Source: Enteropsectra breve (lineage: Eukaryota > Microsporidia). Taken from it: DNA of 26,072 bases. Below the pieces are notes generated by a model. The model worked only from the letters and a program-made list of their open reading frames with translations. It did no database searches and was not told where the DNA came from. Position 1 is the stretch's first letter. Each line of letters opens with the position of its first letter. The DNA is taken from assembly GCA_024243835.1 (NCBI GenBank), contig JALPMN010000601.1:2641-28712 (forward strand). The letters are read 5' to 3'. The translations under genes were made by a program, and so were the position numbers. Below, one piece after another: positions 1-19,131 of the stretch.

Positions 1-408
1 AATTACTTTCGTTGAGTCTGTTTTATCGATGGTTTATTATAGTAAGAGTCTCGACATATTTTTTAGAAAATGCAGTTTTATCTTTGATTGAACATTTTAG
101 AGTAATGCTTTACTGCGTTTAAAGTAATTGATAGCCAAGTTTCATGATGCCTTTACTCTCGTTTTTAATATAATGCTTTATTTTTTTACGACTAAAATCA
201 ATGATCTTCATCTTTCCTCCGAATAAAATGTTTGGCATCTGATTACTAGGAAAACAGTAGAAATCACATTGCTGCAAGAATCAAGTTGAGTAAAAGGGGC
301 AATGTTTAAAACCCCAGCCCCCTTTCTGGTACATATTGGATTCCCCCTTTATTTATTTGCAAAATCATTTGTAAGTTGCAATATTAATTTTTTCCGAAAG
401 TTGCCATA
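1..408. other. AT-rich intergenic leader of the first gene
   Basis: No gene is visible on either strand. From about 236 onward the sequence resembles the block at 2395-2580 that precedes the second paralogue, so this half is part of a duplicated unit and probably holds the promoter. Bases 1-235 show only AT-rich sequence. Confidence 0.5.
236..408 (+). repeat. Duplicated upstream block, copy 1
   Basis: This stretch matches 2395-2580 in order. Both start near GCATCTGATT, both have a C-rich patch followed by a nearly identical TATTTATTTGCAAAATCATTT, and both end with TTTTCC plus an A-rich stretch just before the ATG. The match shows that the gene duplication carried its promoter and leader, and it marks the homologous start codons at 409 and 2581. 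Confidence 0.7.
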
Positions 409-1668
409 ATGCTCAGATTAGCAGGTATTGGACTTGCAACAGCTCTCGCATACTTGGATCTTGCATGGGAATATTATTATCAAAAATATCGATTTAACGT
501 TGATGATGAAATAGCACTACTTCCAAAGAATATAAACCAGGCTTTTATTGGTGACGCATTGGAAGACTACAATAAGCATTGGGTAAGCCATCTATCGCAT
601 CATATGCTGCTGCCTTTACAAAATCTGATAGTCGTAATTGTTATGACATATTTTCCAAAATATCTGGCATTTATTTGCAACAAGTGTGGAAAGGTGTGCA
701 CTGTGTTGTTCCCCGCTTACAGGGGAATAAATTCTCATGAAATACTGCTGCTCCACTTACAGCAGTTCATGATTATTTCCACAGAATGCCTTAATACATT
801 TAATAAGATATACTATATTACAGTTCTAAAATATTCGAAGCCCTTACACAAATATATTACGGTAGCAACTTTGTGGAGAATATTAGTATTAGTATTAGTT
901 GCACCGGTGATGGTCAGGTATAAAATACTAATAGAGAAGAAATTTCATACCAAAGCCCCACTGGTTTTCGCAGCACTTAATACCTTTATAGCACTCGCAG
1001 CCCCATTTGTTCTTTTTGGTATTCATTTTCTTACTGGAGATGTGTTCCCTGCAATAAAACTAAAACCTGATTTTGAATGGTCTCAGATGATAAGAGAGGC
1101 CAGTCCTTACGAAGTTTATGTATTTAGGGGGCTGAAAGCACCCACATTGCACTACAGCATTCTCAAAACTCCGTTTGATCCGTTTCTAATAGTCTCTGAT
1201 CGATCAATTAGGTTGCAAACTCGGTTTAAAAGCATCCGTGAACTGGCACTTATCGAATACAAAAATACATACTACGCTCTGGATGCCTTGATGGTCTTGG
1301 GAAACAACTTTATTTTTGCCATTTTGTTCATGATTTTCGATAGATTTTGTGTAGAATCATTCTGCAGCAAATTCATTCAGCATACAACGGCACATCTTAT
1401 ACTTGAAGAGTTTGCGCATATCGGATTGTTTAAATATTCATCCTTTGGCTATACCTTCTACAACAGGGCTGTTACACAGAAAATAAACCAAATCATTGCC
1501 TCTGAAGGTAACTGCCTAGAAATCTGCCAATCGCTGGTGAATATACATCTCGATTTCTACAATAGACAGGACTTAGCATATTCCAGATTGTATGAGTTTA
1601 TAAATGGCAAGGAAGGGATATTCAGGCGGATAACCGCTATTCTCGAAATGAATAAGAAGACCGGTTAG
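409..1668 (+). CDS. Multi-spanning membrane protein, Ste24-like but lacking the zinc site (copy 1)
   Basis: The protein has 419 residues with hydrophobic segments near 66-84, 154-170, 187-208 and 298-312. By eye its order of blocks follows the CAAX protease Ste24 (M48A): a Tyr-rich first helix end (EYYYQKY, 21-27), an ILIEKKF motif (173-179) where Ste24 has a vIEEKfGF motif, PFDPFL (255-260) where it has LFDTLL, the helix NNFIFAILF, and a C-terminal LVNIHLD...RRITAILE (377-413) like the Ste24 tail. The zinc site is absent: LALIE (279-283) sits where HExxH is expected and FYNRAV (350-355) where FEFQAD is expected. If this is right, it is a membrane pseudoprotease of the ER or nuclear envelope that could bind but not cut its substrate. 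Length is close to Ste24 (about 450). The start is chosen because an in-frame TAA lies at 385 and no earlier ATG is in frame. Family assignment is inference; the alternative is a lineage-specific membrane family. Confidence 0.6.
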   Translation: MLRLAGIGLATALAYLDLAWEYYYQKYRFNVDDEIALLPKNINQAFIGDALEDYNKHWVSHLSHHMLLPLQNLIVVIVMTYFPKYLAFICNKCGKVCTVLFPAYRGINSHEILLLHLQQFMIISTECLNTFNKIYYITVLKYSKPLHKYITVATLWRILVLVLVAPVMVRYKILIEKKFHTKAPLVFAALNTFIALAAPFVLFGIHFLTGDVFPAIKLKPDFEWSQMIREASPYEVYVFRGLKAPTLHYSILKTPFDPFLIVSDRSIRLQTRFKSIRELALIEYKNTYYALDALMVLGNNFIFAILFMIFDRFCVESFCSKFIQHTTAHLILEEFAHIGLFKYSSFGYTFYNRAVTQKINQIIASEGNCLEICQSLVNIHLDFYNRQDLAYSRLYEFINGKEGIFRRITAILEMNKKTG

Positions 1669-2394
1669 AAATCATTTCTTTATTTATTTAAAGTTAAATT
1701 TTTTGAAGTACAAAAAACATTCTATACTCTTAATTTAATGCACTTTTGATTTAATGCATCGATGTAAAGCTATGGTCATCTCACATTTAGAATAAAACGG
1801 TAAAATTTAAAGCGAAGGCAAATTTATTTTTTAATTTCCATGATATTCTGAATGATGAAATGCTTGTAGCATAGTGGTGAAAGCCGCAAGCTTATATTTT
1901 CTGCCCACAAAATTGGTCAAATGGGCTAATGCTTGTTTTTCTGGAAAAGGGTGACTTTTCTTGTTATGTGCTGTTCTTTTAGCTGCACATGTCTGGTATC
2001 TTGTAAAACAGAAGAAGTTTTACTTGTGCTCAGTATATTTTCCCTTTTCAAGGCATTTTTGTCAAACCAAATGCAGCAAAGCTGTGGCATTGGATATTTT
2101 TGCTGAGTGCAATGAAAGATTATGACCGATTTATTGGATATAGGCCCATAAATATAACATATTTAGCAAATTTTGGTAAAAGTAAGTTAATTATGTCCTT
2201 GTATGAACAAAATTTGCATTATGCCAAGGTTCAGATACTAACACTCTATTAATGTTTCAGCAAGTTACACAGCATTCAAAAAGTGAAATCAAATTTACTA
2301 ATGCACTGGATTATCAATGCGCATTCGTGCTTTTAAATGTTCTTAGACCACTGATATATTATTTTGTCTTGATGATGTGATTGAATGACTATTA
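1669..2394. other. Intergenic region between the tandem paralogues
   Basis: No convincing gene was found. The part at about 1850-2110 is less AT-rich than its surroundings and carries a 46-codon ATG frame rich in Cys and Phe, but without start context or resemblance to a known family. It may be decayed coding sequence or chance. Confidence 0.35.
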
Positions 2395-2580
2395 GCATCT
2401 GATTGTTGGAAGAAGTAGTGGAAATTAAATTACTAAGAGCAATGTTAATAATTGGCTTGATGGAAAACATTATATTTAATGCGCCAAGCCCCCCTTCTGA
2501 TACATATTGGTTTTCCCCTCTATTTATTTGCAAAATCATTTTTAAATAGCAATATTAAAATTTTTCCAAAATTTACCACT
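2395..2580 (+). repeat. Duplicated upstream block, copy 2
   Basis: Homologous to 236-408 through to the start codon. Because copy 1 is non-coding and contains an in-frame stop at 385, the in-frame ATG at 2479 here is most likely a chance extension and not the true start of the second gene. Confidence 0.7.
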
Positions 2581-3816
2581 ATGCTTCGATTAGCTGGAAT
2601 TGGAGTCTCAACAGCTCTTGCATGCTTAGATTATGTGTGGGAATACTATTACCAGAGGTATAAGTTTAATGCTGTCAATGAAATGGCACTGATCCCGAAA
2701 GATATGACAACTGACCATACGCACGAAGCTTTAGATAAATGTAGCAAGGAATTAATGATAGATATCAAGCACCATTTGGTATTTATTTTATCACAATCAA
2801 TAGTTATCTCTGTCATGGCATTGGTTCCGCGATATTTAACCTCTATTTGCAACACGCTGGGAAAACTTTCCGCCACGATATTCCCTTCATATAGGGGAAT
2901 AGGTTCTCATGAAATACTGTTACTTCATTTACAACAGTATATGATTATCAAGGCAGAATACAAACATATCTATGACAAATTATATGATCTAATAATTGAA
3001 AAGAATGTTGGGTTCATGAAAAATGAAATTATAAAACATATTGTCTGGAACTTACTAATTCTTGTAATAATAGCGCCACTAGTAGTCAGGTTTAAAATAC
3101 TAATAGAAAAGAAATTCCATGCCAAGGCACCACTAGTTTTTGCAGCTCTCAGTACCATTATATCGCTCGCATCCCCCTTGGCCCTCTTTTATATTAATTT
3201 GCTTAGAGCTATTACGAAGCAAGCCCATGAGCAGGCCCATGGTGAGGTTAAGCCATTCAAACTTTATATAATCAATTCTTTAGCATCAGCTCAATCGTTT
3301 TACAATATTATCAAAACTCCTTTTGATCCGCTGCTTATTCTTTCTAAACAGTTATTTATGAACAATAAAGAATTTAAAAGCATCTACGAACTGGCACTGA
3401 TCGAATGCAATAATAGTCACTACGCCCTGAATGCCCTTATGGTCCTAGGAAACAATTTTATTTTTGCCATTTTGTTCATGATTTTTGACAAATATTGCGT
3501 CAAATCGTTCTGCAGCAAACACATTCAGCACACAACAGCACATCTTGTTCTTGAAGAATTTGCACATATCGGACTATTTAAATATGCATCTATTGGCTCT
3601 ACCTTCTACGGCCAGGCTGTTAGACAGAAAATAAATCAGGATATCGCTTCTAATGAAAAATGTGCCGAGTTCTGTCAATTGATGCTAAATAAGCATATCA
3701 CAGGTAGTAAACCATACGGCCTGTCACACTCCAGATTATATGAGTTCATTAATGGCAAAGCGGGAATTTTAAAGCGGATAAGCAGTATCCTCGCAATGAA
3801 TAAGAAGAATGAATAA
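2581..3816 (+). CDS. Multi-spanning membrane protein, Ste24-like but lacking the zinc site (copy 2)
   Basis: A clear paralogue of the gene at 409-1668: 411 residues, with long near-identical blocks such as the first 30 residues, RGI.SHEILLLHLQQ, FKILIEKKFHAKAPLVFAAL and ALMVLGNNFIFAILF. The central loop (about 205-240) has diverged most. The Ste24-like layout is the same, with LALIE (271-275) in place of HExxH and FYGQAV (342-347) in place of FEFQAD; here the Gln of the Ste24 motif remains while the zinc-binding Glu and the Asp are gone. Conservation of the reading frame and of the altered motif in both copies argues for a retained non-catalytic role and against decay. An in-frame ATG at 2479 would add 34 residues, but that part corresponds to non-coding leader in copy 1. 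The stop codon lies within an AATAAA at 3812-3817. Confidence 0.6.
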   Translation: MLRLAGIGVSTALACLDYVWEYYYQRYKFNAVNEMALIPKDMTTDHTHEALDKCSKELMIDIKHHLVFILSQSIVISVMALVPRYLTSICNTLGKLSATIFPSYRGIGSHEILLLHLQQYMIIKAEYKHIYDKLYDLIIEKNVGFMKNEIIKHIVWNLLILVIIAPLVVRFKILIEKKFHAKAPLVFAALSTIISLASPLALFYINLLRAITKQAHEQAHGEVKPFKLYIINSLASAQSFYNIIKTPFDPLLILSKQLFMNNKEFKSIYELALIECNNSHYALNALMVLGNNFIFAILFMIFDKYCVKSFCSKHIQHTTAHLVLEEFAHIGLFKYASIGSTFYGQAVRQKINQDIASNEKCAEFCQLMLNKHITGSKPYGLSHSRLYEFINGKAGILKRISSILAMNKKNE

Positions 3817-4233
3817 ATATTCTAATTATTAATAAAGCCTAGTATTTTAAACCTGATGTTGCGTTCTTGTGTATCAAAATACATACAATCGTTTATTACA
3901 TGTTCTAAAAACTTACAGATGAAGCAAATGCAACTCAAGTTTTGCTATTAATAGTCATTATTATTTTTAGAAATATTATTCATGGAAAATTAATCCAATT
4001 ACTAAACTCAATAGAGTATTTTTAAATATGCTTGTATACAACTTTATAGTTTGTAGCTTTAATACTCGTTTAAAGTTAAGGTATAAAAGTATTCCATTGT
4101 ATGCAAGATCAGCATGCTTTTTTAAAAGTTCCGCCTATTATTTATAGAGATTATAAAAACAGTTTTCTTTAGCACAATAAGGTTTCTGATACGATTTAAA
4201 TGTTTTATTTTATTAAAATCAATTAAACTTAGC
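3817..4233. other. Convergent 3' intergenic region
   Basis: AT-rich spacer between two converging genes. An AATAAA-like signal overlaps the upstream stop codon. No gene, RNA or strong repeat is visible. Confidence 0.5.
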
Positions 4234-5694
4234 TCATACCGATTCAAACAAAAATATAGTCCCATTTTCCATTTCTTTCTCATTACATTCCTTTATTAAA
4301 CTGTCACTGATACAGTAGCAGCTGCTGCCTTCCTTGATGCACCATGTGTAGTGCCCCATGCTTGTTGTTGCGCCAGCATGGCATATCGCCCCCTTGGGAA
4401 GATATTTTTTCCCGCCTACCGTAATCTCGCCCATTTTGATTGGATCACTAACTTTCTCTTCAGCGCCCTCATTAAATCTATATCTCTTTGAAATGACGAC
4501 CAGATACTTCCCACTGCCTGAAATTTTATTTTTCATCGTCTTCATTTTCTTGCACTCGCATTTTACCTCAGTCGATGTTTCTAGCTCTTCAATACTCTCT
4601 GCGATTGTTTCTTTAACTTCAACAAAAAGCAATTTGCTTTTAACGGTATTTTCACTTTTTTCATTGCAGTGCGAGCACTCAATGGTGTTCGTTGTTTTGT
4701 ATTCAAAGGACTCAGTGCATGCGGGAAGGAGACCAGCATCTTCGTAGAACTCGAGTCGCTCTACTAAAATAGAAAGAAATTCAGAAGCATCGCCTTGAAC
4801 ATTCGGGTAGAATCCGTCCATGTCCATAAAAACAGTCTCAATAAATTCAGGGATAGAAATGCAGGATATTGGCTTTGTGTTTGTTCTCAGCTCGTTCATA
4901 ATTCGCACGTACTGGCAGCAGATACAATAAACAGGGTTATTTTCACACAACTGAAAATGAACGGTTAGATCCTTTTCTGACAGAATAGTGCCGAGCATCT
5001 GCAGCACCGAAGAGATAAAGCATGTTTGTCCCTCGTTGCGGATGCCTGTAAAAAGAGAGGGGTCGCTTTCGAGCACAGGATCATTTTCTTTAGCCTCGAT
5101 ATTTTCCTGAAATTCCTTTGAGTTATCTGTTGCCACTTCACTAAGGCGCTTGTCGAAGGATACAAAATCTTTGCATTTGTAGCAAAAAACCTGTTCATTC
5201 GAACCTCCAAGAGAAGAGATGTAAGCAACCTGTGCGTGTTCCTCCCTTGTAGAATTGCAGTGATCCTCTGCGTGCCCATTGCCCTTCATTCCGTACTGCA
5301 GCCTTCCGCATCCAACATAGCCACAATCGAGGCAGATCCAAAGATTATCTGTCATTCCGCACTCTCCGCATTTGGGAATCGTGTCTTTCAGATCCTTGAG
5401 GTAAATTTGCTCTTTCTGGTGCGGACATGCCTTTTTTTGCTCTTTTGTAGCATTTTCTGCAGCTTTACAGAGCTCATTTCGTATCTCTTCCGGATTGTCA
5501 CAGCTTGTTACTTCTAAATTGTTGTTGTCATCTTTGAAAACGATGAACTGGCACTCACAGCCGAACTTGTCCTCATGGAACTCTCGGTGCTCGATGCATG
5601 TTGAAAGGCCACAGGTGCAGAAGCAGATGCCTGCCTTAATATCTGTAAAGCAGTAGCAGCACGTATTTTTGAAGTCGGAAAGGTTTAACGCCAT
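4234..5694 (-). CDS. Ubiquitin carboxyl-terminal hydrolase, USP5/Ubp14 type
   Basis: A cysteine protease that would disassemble free, unanchored polyubiquitin chains and recycle ubiquitin. The 486 residues contain an N-terminal Cys/His-rich finger (about 12-45), as in the USP5 variant finger; a ZnF-UBP domain (about 105-175; CGECG, CLDCG, VGCGR, GNGHAEDH) that in the family reads the free ubiquitin C-terminus; and a USP catalytic domain. The Cys box is GIRNEGQTCFISSVLQ with Cys225, followed by GDASEFL and CxxC pairs; the His box is MGHYTW with His448. Only about 220 residues separate Cys and His, so the two UBA domains that USP5 carries inside its catalytic domain are missing, making this a minimal version. 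The first ATG in frame (5694) is used, preceded by a GCGCCCCA patch; the frame stays open a few codons upstream without an ATG. Confidence 0.88.
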   Translation of the reverse strand: MALNLSDFKNTCCYCFTDIKAGICFCTCGLSTCIEHREFHEDKFGCECQFIVFKDDNNNLEVTSCDNPEEIRNELCKAAENATKEQKKACPHQKEQIYLKDLKDTIPKCGECGMTDNLWICLDCGYVGCGRLQYGMKGNGHAEDHCNSTREEHAQVAYISSLGGSNEQVFCYKCKDFVSFDKRLSEVATDNSKEFQENIEAKENDPVLESDPSLFTGIRNEGQTCFISSVLQMLGTILSEKDLTVHFQLCENNPVYCICCQYVRIMNELRTNTKPISCISIPEFIETVFMDMDGFYPNVQGDASEFLSILVERLEFYEDAGLLPACTESFEYKTTNTIECSHCNEKSENTVKSKLLFVEVKETIAESIEELETSTEVKCECKKMKTMKNKISGSGKYLVVISKRYRFNEGAEEKVSDPIKMGEITVGGKKYLPKGAICHAGATTSMGHYTWCIKEGSSCYCISDSLIKECNEKEMENGTIFLFESV

Positions 5695-6135
5695 TGGGGC
5701 GCTAAACAAAAGAATTATTTCAAAGAAACCATAGAACCACTATTTATATTACTGAAATACTTGATTCAATTAAGAAAAACACCATTAAAATATTCTTACG
5801 TTTAAAAGAGGTGTTTTAATTAATCGTTGACTATGTCCATTAAATATTGAAGCTCAAGTGACTTTAATACAATGAATTCAAGTGAAGCAATATTATTTAC
5901 AAAAAGTTAAAATGATAAGTCATTCTGTTTAATAATATTAACCTGTACATAACATTTGCTTGTGTCATGCTCTGTTTAATACGTTACAAGTACTATTGAA
6001 ATACAGTTCATAAGCATCAACTCTTTTATACTAAAACATTTACGAATCTTGTTAGCATATAGCTGTATAAGCAATTATATTTATTGAATTACCCCTATGT
6101 TTACTTTGTCTTGTGTTAACAAATCTGTTTGTTTT
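5695..6135. other. Intergenic region upstream of the deubiquitinase
   Basis: AT-rich spacer holding the deubiquitinase leader (minus strand) and the 3' flank of the next minus-strand gene. No gene or RNA is seen; short open frames around 6081-6291 are shadows of the neighbouring gene. Confidence 0.45.
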
Positions 6136-7461
6136 TCAGGCCGAGTTGCTAAGTTGGTTTGCTCTATCGACTCGCGTAACATAGCTGGGCAAGTTGTAAA
6201 AAATACAGTTGAACATTTCAAGATTAAAATTGTCGGTAGATCCATAGCTGTAGAATTTTTGTACATCATCTGCCATAAGACAACTTTTTAGCATCTCAAT
6301 GTCATCCTTGGCCATTACTTTATCAATATGCAGCGTATAAAAGAATTGTAGGGCGTTTTGCACCATGCTAGAAAGTGATACGGAAAGAAGAGTAACCACA
6401 GTGGCTTGAAGATATCCATGCCCCAAATTATTAGCATCTTTTTTGTATGTAATTAAGAAAAGAACAAATATCGTAAGAAGTGACACCACGGCTATGTTGA
6501 TAGCTAAGATGATATTGTGGTAATTGCTCTGGCACAAAAGCGCCTGTTGAAGAATGAGTCCACACCACTCGCTTACCCTATTTGCATCTCTTAATATGCT
6601 AAGCTCAGATCCAATAAATATTGCCTTTCTTTTCCACGTGTGTACCGTAAAGGCTTGCTCTGGGCTGCATAGTATGAAATACTCATAAGTAAAAATATTC
6701 TTCGAGCTAATTATAAAATTATACTTATCAACCATCATTTTCATACATTTTCGCATCGCGCTAATTGTTTCTCCATCTAAAGAGAATCTATCTATAACTC
6801 TTGGCACATCATTAATCTCTATATGGGACCTTACTGTGTAAGCTAGAACGATGTCGTCGGATAGTCCCAGGAATTGAAAATGCTGATGGCAGCAATAAAA
6901 TATGAGCAGAAGGAAAAATACCATGAATTTCATTGATGCAGAGTTTTTCACAGCCAGTTCTGTGTAAAATAGGCATATAATAGCATATACAACATAAATT
7001 AGTGTCACACGCATCTGAATGAGCTTTGTTATAAACTCCCATACAAGGATAAAACAAGCAATTGATACCGGTATAGAAACTAATGCCGCGACAAGATATT
7101 TGATAAGCCCTGGACTTTGGTACACTAAGAGAGACCAAAAGTCTTCTTCATATTTCGAAAAGGAACAAAGAAGAACGAAGGCAATAATAAGAGGCAAAGC
7201 CACCTTCATGGCTATTTTGGTATAATCTCTTATGCAATGCACGAGAAAAAATTTACCAACATCCAGAGCTCTGGACTTGTAGCTTTCAAGCTTAACGCAA
7301 AAGAGAATTATCTGCACGGACATGAGCCCCAGAACTATTCCCAATATGACCAAGACTATCAGGAAGAGTGTTCTGTTGATAGTTCTATTTCCCTTTGGCG
7401 TGTTGAATAAGCGGTATAATGAAGAGTTGCAGAGCTCTTTCCCCTTTGCTTCAGTTTCCAT
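6136..7461 (-). CDS. Multi-spanning membrane protein, divergent Ste24-like without the zinc site
   Basis: The protein has 441 residues with hydrophobic helices near 32-55, 85-100, 120-145, 153-170, 178-195, 316-338 and 350-372. It shares little obvious identity with the tandem pair at 0.4-3.8 kb but also follows Ste24 by eye. SYKSRALDVGKF (60-71) fits the loop after helix 1. RVIDRFSLDGETISAMRKCM (221-240) fits the PLFNKFTPLPEGELREKI region. KRKAIFIGSELSIL (277-290) fits KRIVLFDTLL. NALQFFYTLHID (369-380) fits NALSRRFEYQAD, and NLEMFNCIFYNLPSYVTRV (413-431) fits the conserved C-terminal YSAFHYSHPTLVERI. No HExxH is present anywhere and the third ligand is missing, so protease activity is not expected. 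The ATG at 7461 follows a strong TATAAAATTTTAATCC leader. Family assignment is inference; it could be an unrelated membrane protein. Confidence 0.55.
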   Translation of the reverse strand: METEAKGKELCNSSLYRLFNTPKGNRTINRTLFLIVLVILGIVLGLMSVQIILFCVKLESYKSRALDVGKFFLVHCIRDYTKIAMKVALPLIIAFVLLCSFSKYEEDFWSLLVYQSPGLIKYLVAALVSIPVSIACFILVWEFITKLIQMRVTLIYVVYAIICLFYTELAVKNSASMKFMVFFLLLIFYCCHQHFQFLGLSDDIVLAYTVRSHIEINDVPRVIDRFSLDGETISAMRKCMKMMVDKYNFIISSKNIFTYEYFILCSPEQAFTVHTWKRKAIFIGSELSILRDANRVSEWCGLILQQALLCQSNYHNIILAINIAVVSLLTIFVLFLITYKKDANNLGHGYLQATVVTLLSVSLSSMVQNALQFFYTLHIDKVMAKDDIEMLKSCLMADDVQKFYSYGSTDNFNLEMFNCIFYNLPSYVTRVDRANQLSNSA

Positions 7462-11572: not shown

Positions 11573-12435
11573 ATCTTTTAAGTCTCTTTTGCTCTCGTAG
11601 GCATAGCATGGTTTATGCAGTTTACAATAAAATGCTTATTTATAAACAAAATTGGGGAATTTGTTGGCTTTTTGAAATATAAAATGATATGTATAAAATA
11701 CTATATATAAAATGATATATGTGTGCTTGTTTTGTGGTTAACATACATGTGTCTACGCTATTTTTAAGTATTTTAATATTTTCTGTCATTCTAAAGATTA
11801 ATTTATACTTAAAAAGGATGTTTAATTATACATACCAAAAACATTGCTGTCTTTCTTAATTTGTAAACCATAAGGATATTCTATGCTGCTGACAAGTAGT
11901 ACTTAATCAAGCATCCAGTTTTAAAATAGGAATGCATTCTACAGTGCTTCACAAGGTCTTTCGCTAAAAATAAAGTTGTTCTACCTTACTATTGTTGATC
12001 TTAACAACCCATGCAATAAATTAAGCTTATTTTATTGAATTGTACCCTGCGCTCCTGTCTTTGTAAAAAAGAGCTCTTTCGCAAAAAATAAGATCAGGGG
12101 ATTACAGATCGATCTATCTCTAAAAATGCTGCTGTTTTTGATCTTTTTTATTTCTTGTTCTAGAATTTTTTAATCCTATGATGAAAAATAAAATATTAGA
12201 TAAAAATGATACAATAAAAGTGATAAGATCTTTTTACAGGGGGAAAAGGCGCTTATAATAAAGGGTCGCAAAAATCAAAACAGTGCAAATAAACACCAAT
12301 GCATGCGCAGTATCGCGTGCTTTTTCTCAGTAGAGCGCCTGTATCGACGCACTGGGATATCTTTGTTTGTTGACCTTTCATTAATAAATATTTGATCAAA
12401 TTTTAAAAGTCTTAAAGTTCTAGTAGGCCCCATTG
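11573..12435. other. Long intergenic region with GC-raised islands
   Basis: No protein gene was found. Two phrases resemble each other (CTTTCGCTAAAAATAAAG near 11960 and CTCTTTCGCAAAAAATAAG near 12073). Two patches are less AT-rich than the rest, near 12045-12140 and 12235-12360. The second includes a hairpin followed by five T. Either patch could hide a non-coding RNA or promoter elements. Confidence 0.35.
12301..12325 (+). other. GC-rich hairpin followed by TTTTT
   Basis: GCATGC pairs with GCGTGC (one G-U pair) around an 8-base loop, directly followed by five T. This looks like the 3' end of a pol III transcript, but no family of RNA upstream of it is recognisable and internal A/B boxes are not apparent. 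Chance is possible. Confidence 0.3.
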
Positions 12436-14052
12436 ATGGATTCGCAGCGAGGCTTTGCAAAGAAGGATGTTGAGGATGCAGCTCTGTTCAGTGATTTTGT
12501 GCGTGTAGTAAATGTGAAGAAGAGCGAGGGCCAGCCCCGTGCGCAGATGCGCATGAGTGAAAGATTTTCAGGTTCTGTGGCAAATTCTGTATTTAATGTG
12601 CCGTATATCGCTCCCTACAGCAGTGAATACAGCAGTGCGTGTGAGAGCATTGGAAGTGTCCAGAAAACGAGCCAGAGGAGTGCATATTTAGCCAGTGAAA
12701 ATTACATCAATGGGCACAATTTTAAAATAAACAAAGAAGACGGGCGCATGAATGTTTATGCAGGGCGTGAGCGCAGCCACGGAGAGATGAAGCATCGCAG
12801 TGAGGAGTGGCACAGCAGGCATCGACACCACGGCCACCGGTCGCACGCCTCGGCTCATCACAGGCTCTCTGAGCATCGCCAGGTAAAAAATTATCTGAGG
12901 AATGAAAATTTTCCGAGAAACGAGAACTTTCCGAGAGGCGAGAACTTTCCGAGAAGCGAGAACTTTTCGAGAGGCGACAATTTCCCAAGGCACGAAGGCA
13001 TAAATAATGCATCCATGAGCTATGAATTTGCCAGGGCTGAAGGCTTTGCAGGCGATGAGCGGGACTTTGTGTCTGGTGATGGGAACTATTCTGTCCATCA
13101 ACACAAGAGCAGATACCCACCAGGCTTCGCTGATAAAATTTATCCCCATAACTCACATGAGCCAAGCTATTCTGCCGATGAGAATACTTTTCCAGTTGAG
13201 AATAGCTTTCCAAGTGCGAACAATTTCTCAAATGAAACTGAACGTACCAACACCTTTGCAGCACACAGGTCTCCCGTCATTCCCCATAGAAGTATTTCCG
13301 TAAGCGATGTATACGAGGCGGAGGAAAAGCCTGTTTATATGGAGAACAACGGGCAGACGGTACCTGGCGCAGAACAGCAGACGGACATGATTTCACCAAG
13401 TAAAAAGCATATTTCTGCGGTTGAATATGAAGAAACGCTTTATTTTGAGCAGAGCAGGCAGCACCACAAGCACTATAAGAACAACAGCAATGAAAAAAAT
13501 AGCGTTATGAATTTTGAGAACGATGAATATGTTGATGTACAAGAGGAAATGAATACTGGCGATAAGGGCTGTAAAGCAGAAGAAGTAGCAGGCACCAATT
13601 TCCATCCCAGAGGAAGCTGCATGTCCAGCGGATGCATCAAGCGCGAGTGCCAGCCAGGGGACGGTGTTTACCGTATAAACACAGTTGAGGAAAATACCGT
13701 TGAAGTAGTGAGTGAAGAAAACTATAAGACAAGCTATGGCTATGAAGAGCAGTATGTGCATCAAAGCAAAGAAGAAGGCCACAAATACGGCCCAGGCAGC
13801 TTAAACAGCAGCAATATGCACAGAGGCGTGCTGCCTGCACAGCCGGGGATGCTCCCACAGCAGCGAACAAGATTTAGAAGTTTGGATGAATCGATTGACC
13901 ATCTGATGGCCCTGAGAAAGGACCCGTTTGATGCCACAAATGCAGAGGGCAACATGTTTGTCTGTAGCTACTGCGATGCCAAGTACATTTACAAGCGATG
14001 TTTGGTAAATCATTTGATAAAGACACACAGGAAGTTAATTAAAATGTTATGA
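12436..14052 (+). CDS. Low-complexity protein with a C-terminal C2H2 zinc finger
   Basis: The protein has 538 residues. Its only clear fold is one C2H2 finger at the extreme C-terminus: Cys510-x2-Cys513-x12-His526-x4-His531, followed by a basic tail. The rest appears disordered: a His/Arg-rich stretch (about 115-150), five hexapeptide units of the type RxENFP (155-184) and further degenerate ENxFP motifs up to about 270. A conserved-looking segment RFRSLDESIDHLMALRKDPFD lies just before the finger. A lone finger with a long disordered arm suggests a nuclear nucleic-acid-binding or transcription-related protein, but its target is unknown. The ATG at 12436 is preceded in frame by a TAG at 12424 and by TAGGCCCCATTG, which fits the C-rich start context of this genome. 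No known orthologue was recognised. Confidence 0.75.
   Translation: MDSQRGFAKKDVEDAALFSDFVRVVNVKKSEGQPRAQMRMSERFSGSVANSVFNVPYIAPYSSEYSSACESIGSVQKTSQRSAYLASENYINGHNFKINKEDGRMNVYAGRERSHGEMKHRSEEWHSRHRHHGHRSHASAHHRLSEHRQVKNYLRNENFPRNENFPRGENFPRSENFSRGDNFPRHEGINNASMSYEFARAEGFAGDERDFVSGDGNYSVHQHKSRYPPGFADKIYPHNSHEPSYSADENTFPVENSFPSANNFSNETERTNTFAAHRSPVIPHRSISVSDVYEAEEKPVYMENNGQTVPGAEQQTDMISPSKKHISAVEYEETLYFEQSRQHHKHYKNNSNEKNSVMNFENDEYVDVQEEMNTGDKGCKAEEVAGTNFHPRGSCMSSGCIKRECQPGDGVYRINTVEENTVEVVSEENYKTSYGYEEQYVHQSKEEGHKYGPGSLNSSNMHRGVLPAQPGMLPQQRTRFRSLDESIDHLMALRKDPFDATNAEGNMFVCSYCDAKYIYKRCLVNHLIKTHRKLIKML
12898..12987 (+). repeat. Coding 18-bp repeat, five units (RxENFP)
   Basis: Five head-to-tail 18-bp units encode RNENFP, RNENFP, RGENFP, RSENFS and RGDNFP. 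Synonymous and mild changes between units show that the motif drifted under some constraint on the peptide. Confidence 0.8.
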
Positions 14053-16216: not shown

Positions 16217-16242
16217 TAAAATTTTAACTGCAAAATTTGGCC
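16217..16242 (+). promoter_or_regulatory. AAAATTTT box and CC patch before Rrp44
   Basis: TAAAATTTTAACTG and CAAAATTTGGCC abut the ATG at 16243, with CC directly next to the start codon. The context supports this ATG as the true start. Confidence 0.5.
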
Positions 16243-19131
16243 ATGTTTAGAGGGACACAGAAAAAGATAAAGCTAAACAGCCAGTATCAGCTCGCAAGAA
16301 ACGTAAGCGAAATATATGTGCACAGCAACATGCCGGTATTTCCAGCAGACTATGACTTCAGCAAGCCCATTCTTTTCCCTGCAGAGTCTCTGCTTCTGAC
16401 GCACAGCACCTTGCTTCTTCTGAAGAACTACAACTTTGTAATAAACCAGTCTTTCATCAGCAAGCTGGAGACCAACCAGAACAAAAGCCTGAAAATAAAA
16501 AATCTGCTGAGCCTGATAAGAAAGAACAACACAGACAACAAATACACGATATTCAAGGACTGCTTTTGTGCCGAAACAGCCGGCTCGTCTGAACTAGAGA
16601 AGTTTGAATACTGCTCCAGCAAATATACAGAGATTCAGATGATATTTCTTACTCAGGACAACATGAAGCAATACATCGATGCAGACATCTGCCTGGGGGA
16701 TAAAACAGAGATACCGATCGATATAAACAGCCTTGATGCGTCAATCGATATGAAGAGCCCATTCTCCAAAATACACGACTTAAAGAGCCAAAAGCAAGAA
16801 ACTGACATTTACAGCGAATACATCGATGATCTTGAGGGGCACTACCGACAGGGCACCATTTCCAAGGGAACATTGGGAGTGTCTCCACTGGACAGCAATG
16901 CTGCTGAAATACTCGGAACAAATGAGAGGATCCATCTGACTGGAACAGAAATGAACAGAGCAATGCATGGAGATGAGGTATATTTTAAGGACGGGCGTGT
17001 TGTTGGTATTCAAAAGACAAAAACAAGGACAGTTGTTGGCACGCTCTACCGCCTGTATCAGTTTGATTCTTCCAATATTAATATTAAAAGCACTAAAGAC
17101 AAGCCCCTCGGAGTTGCATTCATAAAACCCATTGATAAAAAACTGCCTGTGATTTTTGCTTTAACTTTCCTGGACGAGTCATTTATCAACCGCAAGGTTG
17201 TGGTGCATCTGAGCCACTGGGAGCGAACCAGCAAATATCCACAGGGCACCATTTTTAAAATACTGGGAACAAATGGAAATGTGGAGGATGAAATAGAGGC
17301 AGCCTTCTATCATTTTAATATTGAGTATTTTAAGGACAGCTGGAGTAAAACAGTAGCAAAGCTGGAGAAAGCCAAGAATCTGTCTGAGCTGCGGACATGT
17401 GCTGATGATAAACGATTTTTTGCGCTTTTAGAAAGTACCGTTAGTAAAAATAATACTAAAAGTGCTCTTAGTGACTATACAGCTCATATTAAACATAATA
17501 ACGATAGCTCATATCAAGCCAATGAAGAGGCTATAGAAACGCTAGAAAAGAATATAAAAGATATTAATGATAAAAATAAAAATAATTATAAAGATAAAAA
17601 TATTGATAATGATAAACAGGATCTCCTTGGATTCGACAGCTACGCTTTCAGCATCGAGCCAGCATATGAAGAGCTGCGAAAGGGAAAGAGAAGAGACCTG
17701 AGAGACTTAGAAATATGTTCCATCGATCCGGTGGGATGCACAGATATCGATGATGCTCTGCACTGTCGTGTTCTTCCCAACGGATGCATTGAAATTGGCG
17801 TTCATATTGCTGATGTGAGTTTCTATGTGAAGGAAAAGAGTGTTTTGGATGTTGAGGCACAGAAGCGCTCAACAACTGTTTATTTGCCAGACCGGCGCGT
17901 GGACATGCTCCCGCCGTTCCTATCGGCAGATCTTTGTTCTCTGCACGAGAACAGGGACCGTGCAGCATTCAGCTGTGTGTGGGTGTTTGACAGAAGCTAC
18001 CAGATAGTTTCCCGGGATATTTTCAGGTCTGTGATACGCAGCAGGAAGGCCTTTTCCTATGAGGAGGCCTATTCTGTCATACAGCGCATTTCTAATAATT
18101 CCAATATAAGTAAAGATATGAATAATAATTCCAGTAGTAATATGAATAATAATTCCAGTAGTAATATGAATAATAATTCCAGTAGTAATATGAATAATAA
18201 TTCCAGTAGTAATATGAATAATAATTCCAGTAGTAATATGAATAATAATTCCAATAATATAAAAAATGATTATAATAATAGTATTGATGAATACAAAAAA
18301 CTCAATCTCGATATTCTCATGGATGTCGCCCAGTTCCTGCGCAGAAGAATCGCGGAAAAGGGTGCTCTGGCCCTGAGTGCAAACGAGATATACATCGACA
18401 GAGATAAGAAAATACGCATCAAGGACTCAATTCCAACACACTACCTGGTGGAGGAGTTCATGCTGCTTGCAAACATCACCGTGGCTGAGTACATTTTGAA
18501 GCATGTGCCTGACTATGCACTGCTCAGAAAGCATCCACTGCCATCTGCCATTGATGTCCCAGGAATAGACAGCACATCAAGCCACACAATAAACAAGTCG
18601 CTGGAACTGCTCGATGACGAGAGAAAGGCAGTCGTGAAGAGAATGATAACACGCTCGTTGCAGCAGGCCATTTACTTCGTGAGTGGAGACTCAGCCGACT
18701 ACTTCCACTACGGACTGGCTACCCCTGTTTATACGCACTTTACATCGCCTATCAGAAGATACCCAGACATTATTGTGCATCGCACTCTCTCGTACATCAT
18801 TGAGGGAGACTACGAGAGCATCGATGGGCTTTCAGAGGTTGCAACAACAAAGACAACCAGCCAGATGAACTTCAGCAACAGAAATGCCAGAAATATCGGG
18901 TGGATGATTTCTGAGATGTTTCTGTATCTGAATATTGTGGAGAAGGATCTGGATGGCGTTGTTGTGAGGAAAGAGAGAAATGGATACCATGTGTTTATCC
19001 AGGAGTATGGGCTGGAGGAGTATGTTGAGAGTGATGGGGAATACAAACTATTTGATAAAATTAAGGTCAAGATCATCAAGAACTTCGAGGAGTACTGTAT
19101 AACGAGGAAGATGGTGTTAGTAGAGGTGTAA
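16243..19131 (+). CDS. DIS3: Exosome exoribonuclease Rrp44/Dis3
   Basis: Processive 3'-5' exoribonuclease subunit of the RNA exosome, acting in RNA decay and rRNA maturation. The 962 residues follow the family order. VSEIYVHSNMP (21-31) matches the family start. A PIN domain (about 40-145) is followed by cold-shock modules, the RNB domain and a C-terminal S1-like segment. The RNB site is intact: SIDPVGCTDIDDALH with Asp495, Asp501, Asp503 and Asp504, then VHIADVSFYV, DMLPPFLSADLCSL and HFTSPIRRYPDIIVHR (832-847). The PIN domain appears inactive: of the four acidic residues in yeast Rrp44 (D91, E120, D171, D198) Thr53 and Lys74 replace two, a third has no match, and only Asp139 remains. Two linkers are swollen with Asn/Lys/Asp, one around 430-465 and one an 8-residue tandem repeat from 626. 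The ATG at 16243 directly follows the start motif. Confidence 0.92.
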   Translation: MFRGTQKKIKLNSQYQLARNVSEIYVHSNMPVFPADYDFSKPILFPAESLLLTHSTLLLLKNYNFVINQSFISKLETNQNKSLKIKNLLSLIRKNNTDNKYTIFKDCFCAETAGSSELEKFEYCSSKYTEIQMIFLTQDNMKQYIDADICLGDKTEIPIDINSLDASIDMKSPFSKIHDLKSQKQETDIYSEYIDDLEGHYRQGTISKGTLGVSPLDSNAAEILGTNERIHLTGTEMNRAMHGDEVYFKDGRVVGIQKTKTRTVVGTLYRLYQFDSSNINIKSTKDKPLGVAFIKPIDKKLPVIFALTFLDESFINRKVVVHLSHWERTSKYPQGTIFKILGTNGNVEDEIEAAFYHFNIEYFKDSWSKTVAKLEKAKNLSELRTCADDKRFFALLESTVSKNNTKSALSDYTAHIKHNNDSSYQANEEAIETLEKNIKDINDKNKNNYKDKNIDNDKQDLLGFDSYAFSIEPAYEELRKGKRRDLRDLEICSIDPVGCTDIDDALHCRVLPNGCIEIGVHIADVSFYVKEKSVLDVEAQKRSTTVYLPDRRVDMLPPFLSADLCSLHENRDRAAFSCVWVFDRSYQIVSRDIFRSVIRSRKAFSYEEAYSVIQRISNNSNISKDMNNNSSSNMNNNSSSNMNNNSSSNMNNNSSSNMNNNSSSNMNNNSNNIKNDYNNSIDEYKKLNLDILMDVAQFLRRRIAEKGALALSANEIYIDRDKKIRIKDSIPTHYLVEEFMLLANITVAEYILKHVPDYALLRKHPLPSAIDVPGIDSTSSHTINKSLELLDDERKAVVKRMITRSLQQAIYFVSGDSADYFHYGLATPVYTHFTSPIRRYPDIIVHRTLSYIIEGDYESIDGLSEVATTKTTSQMNFSNRNARNIGWMISEMFLYLNIVEKDLDGVVVRKERNGYHVFIQEYGLEEYVESDGEYKLFDKIKVKIIKNFEEYCITRKMVLVEV
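18118..18258 (+). repeat. Coding 24-bp repeat (MNNNSSSN) inside the RNB domain
   Basis: Five identical 24-bp units (18118-18237) encode MNNNSSSN, followed by a degenerate sixth. The repeat replaces the linker between AFSYEEAY and the helix before RRRIAEKGALAL. The lack of any nucleotide difference between units points to recent expansion. Confidence 0.9.

Follow-up and report, generated by a model that had tools for sequence, protein, structure and literature searches.

Genes of the locus

The stretch of DNA considered here (the window) covers 26,072 nucleotides (positions 2641-28712) of contig JALPMN010000601.1, here C122, of Enteropsectra breve, described as a microsporidian of the nematode Oscheius (PMC5179134). 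Three of its genes encode multi-transmembrane (multi-TM) proteins: W1 and W2, which form a tandem pair, and W3, which has a paralogue elsewhere in the genome (C14, ENBRE01_1064). A preliminary description had presented them as a lineage-specific family of Ste24-like (M48A) membrane proteins without the zinc protease site. The three long frames are indeed present, at 409-1668 (+), 2479-3816 (+) and 6136-7461 (-), and are uninterrupted over their whole length in the list of open reading frames (ORFs) of the window. At least one of the three genes, and perhaps all of them, would be full-length copies that have no metal-binding site. It is rather likely that E. breve has enlarged its Ste24/M48A family and that some copies lost the zinc site and persist as pseudoproteases, namely W3 and C14 and probably W1 and W2. 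The features of the locus are the following (window coordinates).

409-1668, + strand: W1, multi-TM protein of 419 residues, first copy of the tandem pair, without HExxH
2581-3816, + strand: W2, second copy, 411 residues; the frame opens at 2479 and the probable start is 2581
6136-7461, - strand: W3, multi-TM protein of 441 residues, putatively M48-derived, paralogue of C14
313-402, + strand: 5' flank of W1, duplicated ahead of W2 with 84% identical DNA and C-rich at its beginning
2484-2573, + strand: copy of 313-402 that forms the 5' flank of W2; it probably does not encode the W2 N-terminus
1237-1269, + strand: W1 RELALIEYKNT, which stands in for the HExxH helix of Ste24 in an alignment made by hydropathy only; it lies within the slowest-evolving block
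1474-1488, + strand: W1 TQKIN, opposite the EKQAD ligand block of Ste24 (RQKIN in W2), placed by hydropathy only
3226-3240, + strand: W2 HEQAH, which reads as HExxH and lies in a variable loop, away from the catalytic position of Ste24
6535-6549, - strand: W3 QQALL, near the place of HExxH (HNILF in C14), register uncertain
6322-6342, - strand: W3 FYTLHID, aligned with the ExxxD ligand block, with the Asp kept and the Glu replaced by Thr (Val in C14)
6169-6231, - strand: W3 C-terminal tail NFNLEMFNCIFYNLPSYVTRV, which matches NYDFNITNCILLTHISNKHRI of the HExxH-bearing gene C103 and also the tails of C14 and C53

The M48 genes of E. breve

The sample is one species, represented by an assembly of 3.96 Mb in 155 contigs. 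A search of this genome with PF01435 found four genes. The first is the intact Ste24 that the preliminary description had proposed to look for elsewhere in the genome (L001): it has 398 residues, HEFGH, RRNEKQAD and both Pfam M48 domains (5e-32 and 6e-32), and matches yeast Ste24 (4il3) at 1.7e-58. The other three, C53 (ENBRE01_0948), C103 and C108, are divergent and keep HExxH as HEIQH, HESGH and HEIGH, respectively; a database entry inside C108 (P0005) is named STE24 endopeptidase. The gene counts are lower bounds, because parts of the assembly read N, including the 2,640 bases upstream of the window, and its size is below the ~6.0 Mb reported for the E. breve genome (PMC10393165).

In microsporidia several independent Ste24 expansions have been described, with one very divergent clade and HEXXH in all members (Nakjang et al. 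2013, PMC3879972, cited in a later transcriptome paper, PMC4654818). Roles of these proteins in spore chitin or on host proteins were considered possible (PMC3879972). The genes C108, C53 and C103 fit the divergent clade by its description, whereas W3 and C14 are without the motif and W1 and W2 are without it at the expected place.

Similarity of W3 and C14 to the divergent M48 genes

The homology of W3 and C14 is clear (E 2.7e-27, 25% identity; 9.6e-31 by phmmer) and C14 is the one relative of W3 found in the genome. W3 has no sequence relation to W1 or W2. Among the best 7999 candidates scored, in a search that needs shared 5-residue words, the only homologues of W3 and C14 were these two proteins themselves.

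Local profile comparison with hhalign ties this pair to the divergent M48 genes. The W3+C14 profile aligned with that of C53+C103 at P 1.9e-4, with a score of 39.9 over 99 columns (diagonal 336-434/336-436); the aligned part is the C-terminal ~95 residues and takes in the ExxxD block and the tail. The score was 37.4 against a profile of C53, C103, C108 and Ste24, and 35.6 against a large M48 alignment that includes these four, where 211 columns aligned between the soluble domain and the end. The same comparison run on alignments made by the tool itself gave P 2e-4. Sixty shuffles were made per profile test and none scored as high: the local column shuffles had a mean of 16.1 and a maximum of 23.7 against C53+C103, and maxima of 31.4 and 27.5 against the four-gene profile and the large alignment. 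Profile similarity to M48 beyond shuffles, taken here as the mark of descent, was thus found for W3/C14 with profiles that hold the divergent M48 genes. The global mode of hhalign (P 8.6e-5 for W3/C14) was replaced by the local mode, because it missed the true paralogue C103.

The ORF decoys came from a set of ORFs of at least 200 residues. Those carrying both HE..H and E..AD, those containing X and those of at least 900 residues were removed, which left 251; 95 of the 251, from the E. breve stretches L090-L109 and bacterial ones with at least three predicted TM segments, were scored. C14 alone scored 40.4, above all 95 (best decoy 23.9). In a hmmsearch with the four-gene profile C14 came first after the profile's own members (E 0.015), followed among the matches listed by a decoy (0.17). 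The hydropathy decoys were 48 of 68 proteins, kept after removing near-identical ones (mostly bacterial transporters, 330-520 residues), and none was as high as W3 (z 4.6) or C14 (z 3.2) against C53/C103. A combined hydropathy and residue score of W3/C14 against C53/C103, with 200 shuffles per test, was equalled by 2 of them. The clearest common signature lies in the tails NFNLEMFNCIF (W3), NFDYEFFNCLF (C14) and NYDFNITNCIL (C103).

These comparisons give moderate support to a derivation of W3 and C14 from M48, within the C53/C103 branch. The two proteins resemble C53/C103 in the last ~95 residues (by profile) and in layout, and a tail of the form NxxxxxxNC(I/L) is common to C103, C14 and W3; C53 and C103 keep HEIQH/HESGH and the ExxAD block, whereas W3 and C14 do not.

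Directly upstream of C14 (L009:47-1195, +) lies an ORF of 382 residues with several hydrophobic stretches and no Pfam match better than E 0.16.

Duplication and selection in the tandem pair

W1 and W2 are tandem paralogues, as had been proposed, with 54-55% amino-acid identity when aligned over 411 codons, and the LALIE motif pointed out beforehand is common to both. The duplicated unit takes in the 5' flank, where DNA identity is 84% versus 72-80% in the coding blocks listed. The flank of W1 corresponds to C122:2954-3043 (window 314-403) and the W1 ATG lies 95 bases from the flank start. Since the 84%-identical flank is out of frame with this ATG, translation of W2 probably skips the first 34 codons of its frame and would start at the second ATG, 2581; the database entry P0002 is identical to W2 from 2581 onward. 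The spacer between the genes (window 1669-2478, 0.8 kb) holds no ORF of 100 codons. Both flanks (313-402 and 2484-2573) have a C-rich beginning and are better conserved than the coding blocks. C-rich stretches of this kind are a trait of microsporidian promoters.

At the first, second and third codon positions the identity is 0.686, 0.752 and 0.552, so most change falls at third positions. The estimates of nonsynonymous (dN) and synonymous (dS) divergence are 0.33 and 1.15 by the NG86 method and 0.37 and 0.88 by YN00, which corresponds to a dN/dS of ~0.3-0.4. Blockwise (NG86), the ratio has its lowest values, 0.16 and 0.22, at residues 276-330 and 331-419, and peaks at 0.54 at residues 221-275 of W1; the first block has no defined dS. 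The pair is under purifying selection, most of all in the C-terminal third.

Among the 6623 candidates scored, W1 found only itself and W2 (again by shared 5-residue words). The genome holds at least two copies each of the W1/W2 and W3 lines, counted among the best candidates. It also has another multi-TM pair, at L106 (G000:C80:1-10000), which consists of two minus-strand ORFs of 420 residues that are 65% identical.

Membrane layout of W1 and W2

The length and hydropathy layout of W1 and W2 resemble those of the Ste24/ZMPSTE24 CAAX protease (M48A; yeast 4il3, human 4aw6/5syt), from which they differ in having no HExxH at the site, no Glu of ExxxD, no Pfam match and no detectable residue similarity. 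In a global alignment of smoothed hydropathy to the M48A mean, W1 scored 0.494 and W2 0.489, above the paralogues C108 (0.432), C53 (0.365) and C103 (0.273) and above the best of the 48 multi-TM decoys (0.300). Over five parameter settings the layout z of W1/W2 ranged from 3.4 to 4.4, and none of the 48 decoys was as high in any of them. No reversed or rotated form of W1 or W2 exceeded 0.259. When five segments were shuffled (1000 draws from 120 orders) no draw beat the natural order and 8 equalled it, as expected if those draws are the natural order itself. A Ste24-type membrane layout is thus present in W1 and W2 over the whole length, as judged by hydropathy.

At the level of residues, profile similarity beyond shuffles and decoys was not found for W1/W2 with either the canonical or the divergent M48 profiles; the W1/W2 profile rests on two sequences. 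The combined hydropathy and residue score was equalled by 9 of 200 shuffles against M48A and, with the divergent genes as the reference, by 52 and 50 of 200. The residue score along the hydropathy path gave p 0.15 for W1 and p 0.45 for W2, in a test so insensitive that the true paralogue C108 gave p 0.16. W2 alone has a candidate motif, LIIEKNVGFMKNE, against FVIEHKFGFNKKS between TM3 and TM4 of Ste24 (hhalign P 0.034, weak); W1 is without it. The membrane layout by itself suggests that W1 and W2 descend from a canonical-type Ste24.

Residues at the metal site

The preliminary description had stated that none of the three proteins has HExxH. A motif scan bore this out for W1 and W3, and also for C14; W2 departs from it with HEQAH at residue 250 of its long frame, inside a QAHEQAH stretch of the variable loop after TM5. 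This occurrence is treated as chance, because it lies in a variable segment (the one of highest dN/dS), has no counterpart in W1 and stands 57 residues ahead of the HEFGH place in the hydropathy alignment.

HExxH at the conserved helix, which marks an active M48 protein (PF01435), was found in none of W1, W2, W3 and C14. In the hydropathy-only alignment LIEYK of W1 falls at HEFGH and TQKIN (RQKIN in W2) at EKQAD, which leaves no ligand set in this register. The motifs FYNRAV and FYGQAV, which had been offered as counterparts of the FEFQAD ligand motif, do exist in W1 and W2, and the hydropathy alignment puts the EKQAD block of Ste24 five residues on, at TQKIN/RQKIN. The HExxH place falls near QQALL in W3 and HNILF in C14, or a few residues later in a second alignment, and the hydropathy path puts it elsewhere in C14. 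The third-ligand Glu of ExxxD is missing from W3 (TLHID) and C14 (VLSID) and, by hydropathy placement only, from W1/W2 (TQKIN/RQKIN). Given established M48 chemistry, genes without HExxH and the ExxxD Glu are predicted not to bind a catalytic zinc.

Results that weigh against descent from M48

Several observations count against an M48 origin of these proteins and are gathered here. Pfam gave no M48 match at E up to 10 for W1, W2 or W3 and none for C14. A NCBIfam scan of the four proteins found no M48 match either. Searches of PDB sequence profiles with W1/W2 and with W3/C14 returned no Ste24 chain; the profile of the four M48 genes does find Ste24.

For the tandem pair, the profiles scored 16.8, 18.8 and 12.4 against M48, and 38, 17 and 58 of 60 shuffles were as high. 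In the first hydropathy setting W1 and W2 stay below the lowest (0.512) of the 40 bacterial M48A proteins scored out of 77. In a block test with position-specific scoring matrices (PSSM) W1 was at chance (p 0.65) and W2 marginal (p 0.017). For the other pair, W3 was at chance (p 0.56) and C14 marginal (p 0.027) in the same test, which is not decisive: a decoy ORF (L098, 739 residues) reached 24.5, above C103 (16.5), W2 (14.2) and C14 (9.7).

W3 alone scored 23.5 in the profile comparison, below the best of the 95 decoys (23.9). The canonical M48A profile without divergent members (85 rows, from 79 of 80 bacterial loci, one of more than 600 residues being left out, P0007-P0011 and the E. breve Ste24) found neither W3 nor C14. 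Against the canonical M48A mean the layouts of W3, C14 and C103 have z of 1.3-2.6, with 0-3 of 48 decoys as high. The combined score was equalled by 131 of 200 shuffles for W3/C14 against M48A, and by 181 of 200 for C14 alone against the four M48 genes.

Predicted structures lent no support, both models being of poor quality. AlphaFold models built from two-sequence alignments had a confidence (pLDDT) of 36.1 for W1 and 41.9 for W3. The best Foldseek E was 1.3 with the W1 model and 0.17 with the W3 model, neither of them significant, and Ste24 was absent among the matches listed. The W1 model has a helix at 222-230, strands at 235-241, 248-253 and 260-263, and helices at 264-269, 276-285, 291-313 and 321-340. 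This resembles the element order of Ste24 (loop-5 helix, three strands, HExxH helix, TM6, TM7) and is given little weight, because the pLDDT is 36.

Origin of the two pairs

Under the pseudoprotease reading, the M48 family of E. breve would have grown beyond the intact Ste24 and the three divergent copies with HExxH; W3 and C14 would come from the C53/C103 branch and W1 and W2 probably from a canonical-type Ste24. The difference in layout type speaks against the single family of three first proposed: W1/W2 are laid out like canonical Ste24 and W3/C14 like the C53/C103 branch. A lineage-specific Ste24 pseudoprotease family is supported at moderate strength for W3/C14; for W1/W2, which show no residue similarity to M48, the support is the hydropathy layout. 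The expected profile similarity to M48 appeared when W3 was joined with C14 and compared with the divergent M48 genes, and did not appear for W1/W2 with the profiles tried. Under the refuting condition set beforehand W1/W2 would be rejected, but their profile held two sequences and their hydropathy layout agrees well with Ste24. Should both lines come from M48, the zinc site must have disappeared on two or more occasions, because the two differ in layout type. Tentatively, two Ste24-derived pseudoprotease lines may have arisen separately, with half of a family of at least eight genes acting as a substrate-holding barrel and not as a protease; this fuller proposal is somewhat doubtful.

The position of W1, W2 and W3 within 7 kb gives some support to a common origin, because members of microsporidian families are often adjacent (PMC5423893), an arrangement read as local duplication (PMC5423893).

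The alternative that survives best, although it is the less probable one, is that W3/C14 alone are M48-derived. W1 and W2 would then be an unrelated lineage-specific multi-TM family, similar in layout and placed beside W3 by coincidence. The pair has no residue-level M48 signal, many lineage-specific TM families occur in microsporidia, often as neighbours (PMC5423893, PMC10393165), and the genome holds the second multi-TM tandem pair at L106. Against this stand the hydropathy layout of W1/W2, which beats all 48 decoys (mostly bacterial transporters, z ~4) as well as the true paralogues, the weak match of LIIEKNVGF in W2 opposite FVIEHKFGF of Ste24, and the fact that W1/W2 adjoin a second gene that is probably M48-derived.

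It is improbable that the genes are decaying, functionless pseudogenes of Ste24 paralogues. The catalytic residues are lost and no homologue outside the genome was found for W1 or W3/C14 by the word-based search, as decay would have it; however, the frames are open over 411-441 codons, the changes between W1 and W2 fall mostly at third positions with dN/dS ~0.3-0.4 (0.16-0.22 in the C-terminal third), and W3 and C14 are both open at 25% identity. An active metalloprotease whose site has moved elsewhere, for which W2 does offer HEQAH, is very improbable for any of the genes, and a catalytic role of this motif was rejected, given that it is not in W1 and lies within a QAHEQAH stretch of a fast-evolving block.

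Pseudoproteases are known among rhomboids. The Ste24 expansion in microsporidia is already published; inactive branches of it would be new. No earlier description of a natural Ste24 pseudoprotease family was found in one library of open-access papers, judged by titles and abstract openings. The genome paper that covers E. breve assigns a peptidase Pfam domain to some large families, and its main text does not contain 'protease', 'Ste24' or 'M48' (PMC10393165). For the Ste24 of Babesia, catalytic and metal residues are given (PMC8621943).

An inactive barrel can act by binding, because Ste24 encloses a very large seven-helix cavity whose fenestrations may admit membrane proteins (PMC10456885), and ZMPSTE24-E336A, although inactive, matches the wild type in the restriction of virus entry and exceeds it in the pull-down of IFITM3 (PMC9601121). 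In the pseudoproteases proposed here the helical barrel may survive as a chamber for Ste24-type clients or for partner membrane proteins, which it would bind and then hold, sort or shield, or it may regulate the active paralogues. The E336A protein is likewise a barrel that works without catalysis and binds a membrane partner; it is an engineered point mutant in human cells and not a natural pseudoprotease gene (PMC9601121). If the pseudoprotease reading is true, full-length inactive copies in the very small gene sets of microsporidia would point to a task of the Ste24 barrel other than catalysis, a question that virus restriction has already raised for ZMPSTE24. They would also offer naturally inactive barrels with which to study the ligands of the chamber.

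Other genes in the window

Further genes of the window with a Pfam match encode a ubiquitin hydrolase with zf-UBP, RNase HII, phosphofructokinase, Dis3/RNB, an RRM protein and ribosomal L34e, a set in keeping with a eukaryote of this type. The Dis3/RNB gene (window 16237-19131) has a run of NMNNNSSS repeats inside the RNB-domain match. An ORF of 539 residues at 12433-14052, without a Pfam match at 0.01, contains repeats of the form NENFPR/SENFPR; a C-terminal motif that resembles C2H2 by eye (CSYCDAKYIYKRCLVNHLIKTH) is also present.

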